A DNA stretch of 22,633 nt from a virus, in IMG/VR virus record IMGVR_UViG_3300049489_000882, positions 1 to 22,633 of that record. The stretch is one strand, 5' to 3'. Positions 4,611 through 19,506 of the stretch are shown piece after piece. The position numbers and the translations under genes are program-made. Each line of letters starts with the position of its first letter. Within the stretch, counting starts at the first letter, position 1. The notes below the pieces were generated by a model. It made no database searches and was not told the origin of the DNA. It saw only the letters and a program-made list of their open reading frames with translations.

Positions 4611-5147
4611 GGCCAGCCTTTCCTTTTGATCCCATCCCATCGACTTGTGCAGCGAGATAGCTCACAAGGTGGAATTCTTGGGCTGTTAATTGCCGAACGG
4701 AAAACCCGTCAAGCTTTAGGCGATCGGCTCCCCTGATTGCTTCCAAGAGATTGACGGCAAGGATGACTGCGTTTTTTTCCTCAGGCTCGACACCGTCAAG
4801 GTATGGCTGTTTCGCTAGGATATTGACGGCGACAAGCCTTAGGGCTTTTTTGTGCTGTCGCCCAACTTGGCCGCTGCAAGGTCCCAAGCGAATTGAATCA
4901 GGGCATCTATATTGGATCGATCCGATAGGACTTCATCGATTGAAGTGTAAAGGCCTTCAACCGCTACAATGAAATCCCTCCCGGTCTCGATTGCTTTGAG
5001 TGTTCTCAAATAAATGTCTGACTGGCATTCGTCGGAATACCAGCCAGACGAACTGAAGAAACGAAGCTGTTCGATAACATTCGGCACGCGGTACTTGATG
5101 CACCCTTTGCCCTCGCCTAACTCAAGCGTCTTGATCATGTCAGTCAT
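4603..5147 (-). CDS. Tail assembly chaperone fusion (G-T type), made by -1 frameshift
   Basis: This is the predicted frameshifted product, 181 residues. Ribosomes translate the upstream chaperone to the slippery heptamer A AAA AAG (4851 to 4845), slip back one base and continue as ...STKKALRLVAVNILAKQ to the stop at 4603. The downstream frame has no start of its own with a good SD and overlaps the first gene in the -1 frame. In lambda-like siphoviruses the gpG/gpGT pair, always just upstream of the tape measure gene, coats the tape measure during tail assembly and is absent from the virion. Both the location and the frame relationship fit. Whether slippage happens, and how often, cannot be read from sequence. 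Confidence 0.85.
4839..5147 (-). CDS. Tail assembly chaperone (G type), unshifted product
   Basis: A 102-residue protein starting MTDMIKTLELGEGKG. The ATG at 5147 has SD GAGG 8 bases upstream and lies 25 bp after the tail tube stop; an open frame continues further upstream but would overlap the tube gene. The body is largely helical and acidic (YSDECQSDIYLRTLKAIETG, SNIDALIQFAWDLAAAKLG), as in gpG-like chaperones. It stops right after the A-run (GDSTKKP, TAA at 4841). It should be made in excess over the frameshifted fusion and act with it on the tape measure protein. The family is assigned by size, position and frameshift architecture rather than by a diagnostic motif. Confidence 0.85.
   Translation of the reverse strand: MTDMIKTLELGEGKGCIKYRVPNVIEQLRFFSSSGWYSDECQSDIYLRTLKAIETGRDFIVAVEGLYTSIDEVLSDRSNIDALIQFAWDLAAAKLGDSTKKP
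4845..4851 (-). promoter_or_regulatory. Programmed -1 frameshift site A AAA AAG
   Basis: On the minus strand the zero-frame codons are ACA AAA AAG CCC TAA, so the heptamer reads A AAA AAG in X XXY YYZ phase. This is the same heptamer as in E. coli dnaX. The zero-frame stop comes one codon after the site (4841-4839). The -1 frame stays open for 80 further codons and ends 8 bp inside the tape measure start. A GGGAGG-type stimulator or stem-loop was not worked out. Confidence 0.85.
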
Positions 5148-8895: not shown

Positions 8896-9765
8896 TTAAG
8901 CGCCGGTCTGGACTTTGATATGCTTCGCCGCGCCTTGGATACCAAGCTTCGCACCAATCACCCAGTCCACAGACATGACAAAAGCAAACTCATGCTGGCT
9001 GTGCTTGTCAGAGATTTTGAACCGTGGTTCATATTGGGAAACCATGTACAAAAAGTCCGGGTGAAAGAAGAGGCCACCGGCAGTCGCGCCAGCTGTTTGG
9101 GTGTTGTCTTCGAAGATATTAAAGCCGTATCGCTTCAGCCCGATTTGGCCGCTGATCACAGGAGTATCACCGCCGACAAAATCAGCCGATGTAAACGTCG
9201 TGTCGACCAAAAGGTCCGAGTAATACTGGGGAGCGAGCAGACCATACCATGGCTTGTTATAACCCCATTTTGCAATCGCTGCCGTCTCACGGGCAGTCGA
9301 AACAGTCGCGGCTGTCATGGTCGCAATCGATGGGATGGTTGTGGTAGGTGCTACCAGGGAGTAGAGGTAGGTGTTCAGCTGATTGCTGATCGCCTGAACC
9401 ATTGCAGCGCGAATCTCAGTCGCACGCGATCCCACAGGGTCGATCATGGATTGGATCGCGACAAGGTCATGGAAGTCATAGGAAGCTACAATTCGCTGGT
9501 CAGCTGTCACAGAGACAGATGACAGTGAGATTGCTTCGGGAGTGAACGTACGGCCAACGCCCGCGCCGTCGATTGTCAGGCGTTCACCTGTTGGAGCATT
9601 GATTTGGTTGACCTTGACTGTATCGCCCATTTCGCGGAGGTCGCCCGTGTAGTCACGGTTTACGAGGTTATAAAGGAGGTTGGTTTGCCGGAGCTCATCC
9701 ATAAAAAGGGGAGCCCAAAAAGTTTGGATCGCACTGGTTACCTGGTCTAAATCTGAGTTTGCCAT
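8896..9765 (-). CDS. Major capsid protein (HK97 fold, P22 coat-like)
   Basis: A 289-residue protein that should form the icosahedral shell. It begins MANSDLDQVTSAIQTFWAPLF, and the SD AGGGTGACGAC precedes the ATG at 9765. The sequence follows the HK97-fold layout: N-terminal helix (residues 5-35), a beta/extended E-loop-like part (LREMGDTVKVNQINAPTGERL), a spine helix (ATEIRAAMVQAISNQLNTYLYSL, about residues 135-160), P-domain strands and a C-terminal A-domain region (FFHPDFLYMVSQYEPRF, WVIGAKLGIQGAAKHI). 'Gene 5/P22 coat-like' proteins share this profile and lack a prohead protease, and none is encoded here. It follows the scaffold gene, as usual. Confidence 0.92.
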   Translation of the reverse strand: MANSDLDQVTSAIQTFWAPLFMDELRQTNLLYNLVNRDYTGDLREMGDTVKVNQINAPTGERLTIDGAGVGRTFTPEAISLSSVSVTADQRIVASYDFHDLVAIQSMIDPVGSRATEIRAAMVQAISNQLNTYLYSLVAPTTTIPSIATMTAATVSTARETAAIAKWGYNKPWYGLLAPQYYSDLLVDTTFTSADFVGGDTPVISGQIGLKRYGFNIFEDNTQTAGATAGGLFFHPDFLYMVSQYEPRFKISDKHSQHEFAFVMSVDWVIGAKLGIQGAAKHIKVQTGA

Positions 9766-9767
9766 GT

Positions 9768-9812
9768 CGTCACCCTTTTCGTTTGATAAGGATGACGACT
9801 GCCGTCACCCTT
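9768..9812 (-). promoter_or_regulatory. Alternative-hairpin element between scaffold stop and capsid SD
   Basis: In minus-strand RNA the 10-mer AAGGGUGACG occurs twice (9812-9803, starting inside the scaffold TAA stop, and 9777-9768, containing the capsid SD). One complementary arm, CGUCAUCCUU (9797-9788), lies between them. It can pair over 10 bp, with one G-U, with either copy. The first pairing (5-base loop) leaves the capsid SD free; the second (10-base loop) buries it. See findings. Confidence 0.55.
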
Positions 9813-10446
9813 AGAATTTATAGCTATGTTTAACTCGCCCGGCTTTCATTGCTTCCGTTTTTTCTTTGTACGAAAGCTTTTTCCACTCCTCGACACTCAA
9901 TGCATTCGCCGCCGAACCTGACTTGTCGCTGGGCAAAAACGCCTTGGCCGGTGCTGTGAGACGCGGATGCTCCTTTTGGAAGTCCGTGACCACTTGAGAT
10001 ACGGAGGTAAGATCAATTGAACCTTCGTCCGTAATCTCAATTCGATCCAAGGGAAGCAGGCCAAGATACTTGGCTTCCAGCTGGATGCCTTTTTCCTGTA
10101 GAAGTCCGAGCGTGGCGTTGAGTTTGCGAAAGTCTGTTTGCTCTTGCAGGAGGTGACTGGTTTTTTGTTCCAGTTCCAGCTTTTCGCGCTTCAGCTGTTC
10201 GATGTATTCAACGTGCTTTTTTTCAGATATTAGCTTTTGCTCTTCGACCGATTTTTTTTCGTTTTCGAAGGTCAAAAGGCGCTCTTGGACTTCCTGTAAC
10301 TTCTGCTTTGCATTCCGTTCCGCTCTTAACGTTTTCTCGTACGTATCAAACGAAACATGCTTGGGCTTTCCGTCACCGGCTCCGTCGCCACTGGCTAAAT
10401 CGGAGGAGGACCCACTGGATCCATCTAGGTGAGATTCTGCGTTCAT
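9811..10446 (-). CDS. Capsid scaffolding protein
   Basis: A 211-residue, highly charged protein just upstream of the capsid gene. A disordered, Ser/Gly/Asp-rich N-terminus (residues 1-30) leads into a long heptad coiled coil (about 36-115: AERNAKQKLQEVQERLLTF, EQKLISEKKHVEYIEQLKREKLELEQK). The C-terminus is a basic helix-turn segment (WKKLSYKEKTEAMKAGRVKHSYKF), the type of end that scaffolds use to bind coat protein. It should direct procapsid assembly and then leave the head. SD GAAGGAAC lies 6-7 bases before the ATG. The stop codon forms part of the alternative-hairpin element that follows. Confidence 0.9.
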   Translation of the reverse strand: MNAESHLDGSSGSSSDLASGDGAGDGKPKHVSFDTYEKTLRAERNAKQKLQEVQERLLTFENEKKSVEEQKLISEKKHVEYIEQLKREKLELEQKTSHLLQEQTDFRKLNATLGLLQEKGIQLEAKYLGLLPLDRIEITDEGSIDLTSVSQVVTDFQKEHPRLTAPAKAFLPSDKSGSAANALSVEEWKKLSYKEKTEAMKAGRVKHSYKF

Positions 10447-14145: not shown

Positions 14146-14536
14146 AGGCCAGCCGAATTGTGTTTTTCATTTCGTCCGTAGTAGGCACTGGCTGCACGTT
14201 GTCGGACCACCCGGCGAGGTTCTTCAGACAGAAAATAAGCATCGACACGTTGCCTCCCAAGGCCATCGTCACGGCTTTTCTTTTCAGCTGAATCTTAAGG
14301 GCGTCTTTTCTCTTTTCTCTTAACTCTGTTAGATTGGCGGCCTCAAAATGTTCGCACACAATTTTTTCCAGCGTGCTTTGCGATGGGATTTCGTCGTATT
14401 TGGCATCCTTGCCTTGCATCAATCGGAACAGTTCCACGCGAATGTCAGGCCACGAAGCTCCAAGGCATAGGAGCAAGTCGCACAGCATAGCAATTTGCGC
14501 TCGCCCTTCCGGTTCGAGCATCTTTTTACCCGCCAT
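14126..14536 (-). CDS. terS: Terminase small subunit
   Basis: A 136-residue protein that should recognise the packaging site and hand DNA to the large subunit. The start ATG overlaps the methyltransferase stop by 11 bp and has AAAGGG 6 bases upstream. The N-terminal half is an all-helical, HTH-like DNA-binding part (RAQIAMLCDLLLCLGASWPDIRVELFRLM, IPSQSTLEKIVCEHFEAANLTEL). The C-terminal part contains the recurrent small-terminase signature MLIFCLKNLAGWSDN. Position next to terL confirms it. Confidence 0.92.
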   Translation of the reverse strand: MAGKKMLEPEGRAQIAMLCDLLLCLGASWPDIRVELFRLMQGKDAKYDEIPSQSTLEKIVCEHFEAANLTELREKRKDALKIQLKRKAVTMALGGNVSMLIFCLKNLAGWSDNVQPVPTTDEMKNTIRLAYDPKAL

Positions 14537-15788
14537 CGGATACCCTTTCCGCTGTCTTGCCGGTTAAATTTTCCCACCTTTCGATGATTATATCGCAGTA
14601 GGAAGGATCCATTTCCATGGCAAAACATTTTTTGCCAAATTTTTCTGAAGCTATGATTGTTGTGCCTGATCCGCAAAAAGGCTCATAAATCGTTTTAATA
14701 AAATCCAATCGTTCAAGAAACCACGAAGGAACGTATATAGGCATTGTAGCTGCATGCTGTCCCTTTGCGACGTTATCACTTGCGGCGGTTGCGCCTTCTA
14801 TAACATTGTGAAACTTTCCTTGCCAATCGACTGGGAAACCTTTTTTTCTGCAATCTTTTTCCAAGCACAGAAAAAATTCGAATCGGTTTGTGAAAACTCC
14901 TTTATTAACATTGGGAGGCGCTGTGCTCTTTATCCATGGAAATACGTCCTTTACTGAATCGGCATAATATCCAAAAAATAAAGCCAAAGATCGTCTGTTG
15001 CCAGACAAGAACTGATTATTGAAAAAAACGTATTGACACGTATTCAACGCAATGTCGGTGAATTTTTTTAAAAAATCTAGGTATTCTTCGCTTGTTCTAT
15101 TGTCATCATTTTCTTTTTTATACTTACTTTTTCCTCCGTCATAGCCAAATGATCCAGCATTATATGGTGGCGAAGTAAAACATATATCCAATTTTACGTT
15201 ATCTGCTATTAGCTTGCTAACGCAATCATTGCTTGTACTGTCCCCGCACATAAGCCGATGATCTCCGAGCTGCCAAATTTCCCCAGTCTGCACGCGGGCC
15301 GGTGCTTTTTCTGGTATATCGTCTTCTTTGGATTCGTCGAATTCTTCTTTTGGCTTTTCGAATAGGCTCGATATATCGAACGTGATGTCTGGGAAATCAT
15401 AGTCACCGAAATCAAAATCCTCACCGTCAACAAATTCCAAAAATCCGTCCTTTTGGATTTTCCCGTATTGGGATATTGCAAGCAGAACCAGTTTTTTGGC
15501 ATCGCGATAGGTCTCGGCTGAGACGAATGCGCACGATATCGGCGGGACCTTGATCCCCTGCTTTCGCATCTGGGTAAGGACTGACACCCTTTGATGTCCA
15601 TCGATAATGTAAATCGTCTTATCGTTTTGCCAGACGTGGACCGTGAAGGAAAATCCCTCCTCGACAATCGACTTTCGAAGCTTGTTGAAGTTTTTATCGT
15701 CGAGCGTTTTCAGCTTCCCCTGGAACGGAGTCAGCTTTTCAATATCGACTAATTCATTTTTGATTATCCGGTTTCGAATCGTTTCCAT
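14526..15788 (-). CDS. ParB-like domain fused to DNA methyltransferase (N4-C or N6-A, beta class)
   Basis: A 420-residue fusion. Residues 1 to about 115 form a ParB/Srx-like domain (LVDIEKLTPF, then IIDGHQRV at 61-68). From about 170 the methyltransferase starts: GEIWQLGDHRLMCGDST (169-185), catalytic motif IV TSPPYN (205-210), NRFEFFLCL, HAATMPIYVPSWFLERL and S-adenosylmethionine-binding motif I EPFCGSGTT (369-377). Motif order IV before I is class beta; SPPY is more frequent in cytosine-N4 enzymes, but adenine-N6 is possible. It probably modifies phage DNA against host restriction. The methyltransferase part is clearly more AT-rich than the flanking genes, a sign of separate origin. ParB-methylase fusions next to terminase genes are common in phages and prophages. 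Confidence 0.93.
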   Translation of the reverse strand: METIRNRIIKNELVDIEKLTPFQGKLKTLDDKNFNKLRKSIVEEGFSFTVHVWQNDKTIYIIDGHQRVSVLTQMRKQGIKVPPISCAFVSAETYRDAKKLVLLAISQYGKIQKDGFLEFVDGEDFDFGDYDFPDITFDISSLFEKPKEEFDESKEDDIPEKAPARVQTGEIWQLGDHRLMCGDSTSNDCVSKLIADNVKLDICFTSPPYNAGSFGYDGGKSKYKKENDDNRTSEEYLDFLKKFTDIALNTCQYVFFNNQFLSGNRRSLALFFGYYADSVKDVFPWIKSTAPPNVNKGVFTNRFEFFLCLEKDCRKKGFPVDWQGKFHNVIEGATAASDNVAKGQHAATMPIYVPSWFLERLDFIKTIYEPFCGSGTTIIASEKFGKKCFAMEMDPSYCDIIIERWENLTGKTAERVSDGG

Positions 15789-19451: not shown

Positions 19452-19506
19452 AAAGTGTCACCGATTGACACTTTCGAGCTCCAAAGTGTCAGAATTTGAC
19501 ACTTTG
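19452..19506. repeat. Two near-identical palindromes, operator-like
   Basis: AAAGTGTCA-n5-TGACACTTT (arms 19452-19460 and 19466-19474) is followed by CAAAGTGTCA-n5-TGACACTTTG (arms 19482-19491 and 19497-19506). Both have the same half-site and a 5-base centre, CCGAT and GAATT. The centres are 31 bp apart, about three helical turns, so both face the same side of DNA. This is typical of cooperative regulator binding. They lie upstream of the TATAAT at 19535-19540. Confidence 0.8.

Follow-up and report, generated by a model that had tools for sequence, protein, structure and literature searches.

The way in which tailed phages balance scaffold and coat protein made from a single mRNA is unsettled for P22 according to a 2023 paper, in which control of the two proteins at the translational level is suspected but has not been elucidated (PMC9894550). 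The question raised by the locus described here is whether the short gap between a scaffold-like gene and a major capsid gene contains an RNA that could set such a balance. The window, that is, the whole stretch of DNA that was analysed (22,633 bases of a virus record), carries the two genes on its minus strand, separated by 45 nt, and the gap, including the stop and start codons, reads TAAGGGTGACGGCAGTCGTCATCCTTATCAAACGAAAAGGGTGACGACATG on that strand (Table 1).

Family searches with the 211-aa protein of the window gave no convincing match. The upstream ORFs of 27 relatives align with it, and some of these match PHROG head scaffolding families (phrog_206, 3.2e-5; phrog_4638, 3.9e-5; phrog_2303, 9.6e-5), so that from these matches and from its position the upstream gene is likely, though not proven, to be the scaffold. 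The closest named capsid is that of Aeribacillus phage AP45 (24%), and relatives sought in bacterial and archaeal genome contigs gave none.

Table 1. Positions of the genes and pairing segments at the scaffold-capsid junction of the window
Feature	Positions	Strand	Remarks
Scaffold-like protein gene, 211 aa	9811..10446	minus	directly upstream of the capsid gene; from position and alignment
Scaffold stop codon TAA	9811..9813	minus	inside hairpin 1, with all three bases paired there
Copy 1, UAAGGGUGACG	9803..9813	minus	5′ strand of hairpin 1; from sequence and computed folds
Shared arm, GUCGUCAUCCUUA	9787..9799	minus	3′ strand of hairpin 1 or 5′ strand of hairpin 2
Loop from arm to copy 2	9778..9786	minus	varies among relatives
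Copy 2, AAGGGUGACGAC	9766..9777	minus	3′ strand of hairpin 2; contains the capsid SD; last base directly precedes the ATG
Major capsid protein gene, 289 aa	8896..9765	minus	phrog_267 major head protein, 5.1e-14

One arm between two copies

The 10-mer AAGGGTGACG occurs twice on the minus strand, at 9812-9803 (copy 1), where it begins at the second base of the TAA, and at 9777-9768 (copy 2), where the SD for the capsid start codon (ATG at 9765) lies within it. Between them, the arm CGTCATCCTT (9797-9788) can pair with only one copy at a time, forming 10 bp, one of them G-U, with either. In the computed folds of the window, hairpin 1 (copy 1 with the arm) extends to 11 bp and takes in the stop codon, hairpin 2 (the arm with copy 2) extends to 12 bp plus two loop pairs and reaches the base before the ATG, and 10 nucleotides swap partner between the two. 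The preliminary description had placed a repeated 10-mer with a single arm between its copies at 9768-9812, coordinates that are exact, and had proposed two mutually exclusive hairpins, one of them shutting the capsid SD, both of which appear in these folds. Computed folding thus gives two mutually exclusive hairpins that have a segment in common, one of which buries the downstream SD.

When left unconstrained, this region of the window folds into hairpin 2 (-27.1 kcal/mol, z -5.4). Among 18 genes, the capsid has the third strongest duplex with the anti-SD (-8.3 kcal/mol) and the least unpaired start region (0.28), and this combination of a strong SD with a poorly accessible start fits a site that is strong but gated. 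Rfam gave no match in the window at the gathering score, and neither a terminator nor a promoter was found at its scaffold-capsid junction; a U run follows hairpin 1 in L017 alone, and the junction of the window does not have the form of an intrinsic terminator.

Of 2000 shuffles of the window's spacer that preserved its dinucleotides and left the stop and start codons in place, none reached the energy of hairpin 1 (-15.5), none that of hairpin 2 (-20.8), and none both. A lax scan of the whole window, accepting both hairpins at -10 or better, found one further triple, and 6 were found in 20 single-strand shuffles; because of these triples, the sequence alone is not overwhelming at the lax threshold. 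At -11 or better, the scaffold-capsid site is the sole triple in the window. A further three-part repeat, formed by CAAAGTGTCA, TGACACTTTG, and AAAGTGTCA, lies at 19466-19506 of the window between leftward and rightward ORFs, and looks like a repressor operator region.

The hairpin pair among related phages

Searches of viral contigs with the capsid yielded relatives of widely differing identity, and the clade of the window, a group of uncultivated tailed phages, comprises 13 records with different junctions and a capsid identity of at least 68%. Both competing hairpins are kept in 12 of the 13, and these belong to five sequence types: (i) the window, L014, and L002; (ii) the GGGAAGG type, with L003-L007 and L010; (iii) the AGGGAAGG type, with L008 (the junction of L009 is identical); (iv) L017; and (v) L025. 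The capsid genes of the five types show 67-80% DNA identity, their joint shuffle hits amount to 0-2 of 2000, and 9-13 nucleotides swap partner between the folds. L012 has a weak version only (76/2000 shuffles). The tree places L002 apart from the window and L014, which join the GGGAAGG type with modest support, and on this placement the letters of the junction change faster than the arrangement of the hairpins.

Outside these records the pair is absent in L013, L016, L030, and L032, and more generally in phages whose capsids have 63% identity or less, while those still more distant mostly have short spacers. L013 and L032 have a strong SD-side hairpin only: at 5931-6000 of L013 and 1954-2017 of L032, in the junction before the capsid, the start region lies within one long hairpin without a competing copy 1, which is possibly a simpler form of control. 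In L003 (2245-2331), TTA replaces the scaffold stop, a possible sequencing error, and the frame crosses both hairpins, which are kept, to end at nt 28 of the capsid gene. A fusion of scaffold and capsid by readthrough was considered and rejected, as the distances from stop to start (45, 53, 54, 56, 58, and 59 nt) do not keep their value modulo 3.

As the MAFFT alignment of the junctions misplaced the segments, pairs were counted in an ungapped alignment of the window, L014, L002, and L025, placed visually on the core of the arm, and for the other types the evidence comes from each record folded alone. Pair 9, which is C-G in the window, is G-C in L025 in either hairpin, a change that involves copy 1, the arm, and copy 2 together; in hairpin 2, pairs 10 and 12 also differ on both sides. 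Some pairs at the helix ends are lost in L025, namely 1 and 2 in hairpin 2 and 2 and 12 in hairpin 1. In L002, copy 1 differs at two positions (G to A and A to G) and copy 2 at one, and pairing survives via G-U. Eight records together have 16 G-U pairs and four single A-C mismatches. The preliminary description had expected that related phages would keep the pairings despite changed letters, and this is what the five sequence types do. Given the 12 of 13 records, the shuffle results, and the compensatory changes, it is very probable that the bistable arrangement exists and is under selection.

As regards the strand, the antisense folds more weakly in the window type, L017, and L025, about equally in L008, and better in the GGGAAGG type, in the latter in part owing to an A-C mismatch within hairpin 2. 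Evidence on the strand is therefore good in three of the types, and in the other two it is lacking or points the other way. A DNA operator or an antisense RNA, considered as candidates, are not favoured, given the weaker antisense of three types, with the GGGAAGG type and L008 contrary or equal in this respect.

Stability, folding order, and the scaffold ribosome

When copy 2 or copy 1 was held unpaired for comparison, the SD-closing hairpin 2 was more stable than hairpin 1 in every type, by 0.7-5.3 kcal/mol. The window lies at the upper end, with -20.8 for hairpin 2 and -15.5 for hairpin 1, a gap of 5.3 kcal/mol in favour of the closed fold, where the preliminary description had expected two folds close in energy. 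Folding the short segment freely gives hairpin 1 in L006 and L008, where the two folds are nearly balanced.

Measured from the stop, copy 1 mostly occupies nt 1-14, or reaches as far as 19 if inner pairs are counted, and the first base of the arm is at nt 14-24. The 3′ boundary of a ribosome lies roughly 12 nt from the A site (PMC6377232), so that one standing at the stop would hide the greater part of copy 1 and spare the arm, although part of this geometry is unavoidable given the short gap. Since it stops short of the arm, the scaffold ribosome would probably not melt hairpin 2 in the way that upstream ribosomes, in coupling of the MS2 type, melt the structure hiding the next start; in L003, the frame does run through hairpin 2. 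The idea that a ribosome at the stop covers copy 1 therefore agrees in position with the published boundary; the consequence drawn from it, a change in the state of the SD, hardly follows at equilibrium in the window. With such a ribosome modelled as 13 blocked nt, the SD is unpaired at 0.18 both with and without it, and in most records SD exposure at equilibrium is hardly altered, because hairpin 2 is the more stable; the exceptions are L006, where exposure shifts from 0.44 to 0.12, and to a lesser degree L008. Nor does the complementary claim, that without a ribosome hairpin 1 forms and the SD is open, hold at equilibrium in the window, where the closed fold is favoured whether a ribosome is present or not. 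The equilibrium version of the switch is thus rejected for most records, as the closed fold prevails either way.

In the absence of a ribosome, the SD-open state can hold only kinetically, in the nascent RNA, or otherwise where copy 2 is cleared by a capsid ribosome. By computation, hairpin 1 is the best fold of the nascent RNA of the window at lengths 24 to 47 of 51 nt, and much the same holds for seven further records, some of which keep it up to full length. Over the five types, refolding from hairpin 1 into hairpin 2 has a computed barrier of 9.0-11.4 kcal/mol, and the reverse step one of 11.6-14.8 kcal/mol. On ordinary rate estimates, hairpin 1 would persist for anything between less than a second and about a minute, and hairpin 2 for longer.

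A possible translational seesaw and its alternatives

We tentatively read the element as a kinetic translational seesaw controlling capsid translation and setting the scaffold:capsid ratio, a reading to which we would grant somewhat less than an even chance. Hairpin 1 would leave the capsid SD free and hairpin 2 would bury it. In the nascent RNA, hairpin 1 would form first, and the SD would stay open until the RNA refolds into hairpin 2, which is the more stable. A ribosome terminating the scaffold would sit on copy 1 and break hairpin 1, so that hairpin 2 closes, and one initiating the capsid would sit on copy 2, so that hairpin 1 re-forms and the SD stays open. In other words, termination and capsid initiation would push one RNA seesaw in opposite directions, limiting the simultaneous translation of both genes on each mRNA. 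Every step assigned here to a ribosome, and the effect on the protein ratio, we infer. Counted against the seesaw are the dominance of hairpin 2 at equilibrium, the loss of the stop in L003, the weak version in L012, the antisense of the GGGAAGG type, and the absence of the pair at 63% identity or less.

The main rival is a nascent-RNA timer in which scaffold ribosomes have no role: hairpin 1 would be a kinetic trap holding the SD open briefly, hairpin 2 would then shut it, and capsid yield would track the rate of transcription. We judge it unlikely. In its favour, no nascent fold is better than hairpin 1 until about the start codon, a barrier of 9-11 kcal/mol separates it from a closed fold that the constrained comparison makes more stable in every type, and L003, which has no stop at this place, is compatible with it. 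It does not explain why in the other types copy 1 is positioned at the scaffold stop, although the short spacer restricts where it could be placed. Lower still we would rank a static tuning of SD accessibility, or an operator bound by the scaffold or coat protein and repressing capsid or scaffold translation, which seems rather improbable to us. L013 and L032 bury the capsid start without any copy 1, so occlusion alone may be selected, and the suspicion of translational control over scaffold and capsid in P22, its mechanism not elucidated (PMC9894550), is in keeping with such an operator; yet a second complementary copy would be superfluous and is nevertheless kept in five types, and the hairpin sequences vary from type to type, unlike a conserved protein site.

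That the hairpins serve mRNA processing or stability, by protecting the end of the scaffold mRNA or attracting an RNase with no direct effect on initiation, is in our opinion very unlikely: hairpin 1 does stand at the end of the scaffold reading frame and is followed by a U run in L017, but the junction of the window has no terminator-like site, and a stability hairpin has no need of a second partner over the SD. Chance, or a by-product of a duplicated SD-like stretch opposite a pyrimidine-rich one, might be invoked since the copies are purine-rich and SD-like and lax triples arise by chance (6 in 20 shuffles); it is scarcely credible in view of the joint shuffle results in five types and the compensatory change across three segments.

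To return to the seesaw, its nearest known relatives would be the erm attenuators (ermC, ermB), which also consist of an mRNA conformational switch with a hairpin over a downstream SD, the outcome being decided by a ribosome in the upstream frame; there, a ribosome stalled by the drug on a short leader peptide opens the SD (PMC5118997). In the phage element, a full structural gene takes the place of the leader peptide, the ribosome would stand at the stop of this gene, the segments number three, and the SD would close. No short leader peptide with a stall site of the ermC kind lies upstream, where there is instead the 211-aa gene with copy 1 at its stop, and the anatomy, in which covering copy 1 leaves the closed fold, predicts a sign opposite to that of ermC. 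In the RNA phage MS2, the coat-replicase coupling (the Min Jou interaction) is alike in that it belongs to a phage coat region and the movement of the upstream ribosome alters access to the next start; a long-range pairing with the upstream coding region is there opened by ribosomes (PMC11339067; PMC9894550). The pairing of the present element, in contrast, is local, within the gap between genes, and the predicted effect is opposite.

Control of the MS2 maturation protein depends on delayed RNA folding, in which a transient early hairpin keeps the SD open and a more stable closed fold comes later. The early open hairpin resembles hairpin 1, although the maturation leader is located at the start of an RNA phage genome, with no upstream gene stop. 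In P22, the scaffold is autoregulated, its gene is situated just before the coat gene, and the ratio of the two proteins matters for assembly. The order of scaffold before coat is thus the same as here, and no comparable switch RNA is described for P22 in the available part of the source (PMC9894550). Control in the phage of the window would fall on the capsid, as against the scaffold in P22. No published counterpart of such a phage capsid switch was found in the literature searched, which is a part of the whole.

The wider proposition, that a dsDNA phage sets its scaffold:capsid ratio by a cis-acting RNA seesaw, in which the scaffold-ending ribosome represses and the capsid-starting one activates by way of a shared arm, that is, by negative translational coupling, appears to us conceivable and more doubtful than the reading of this locus. 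If true, it would represent a negative coupling of neighbouring genes by upstream termination, the reverse of ordinary translational coupling, residing in a compact and conserved stretch of some 50 nt, which offers a specific prediction that is easy to test and natural variants differing in sequence.

Elsewhere on the minus strand of the window, a strong 15-bp hairpin (-23.7 kcal/mol) is found at 5016-5049, and an ORF at 14526-15788 combines a ParB-like N-terminal part with a DNA methyltransferase in its C-terminal part.
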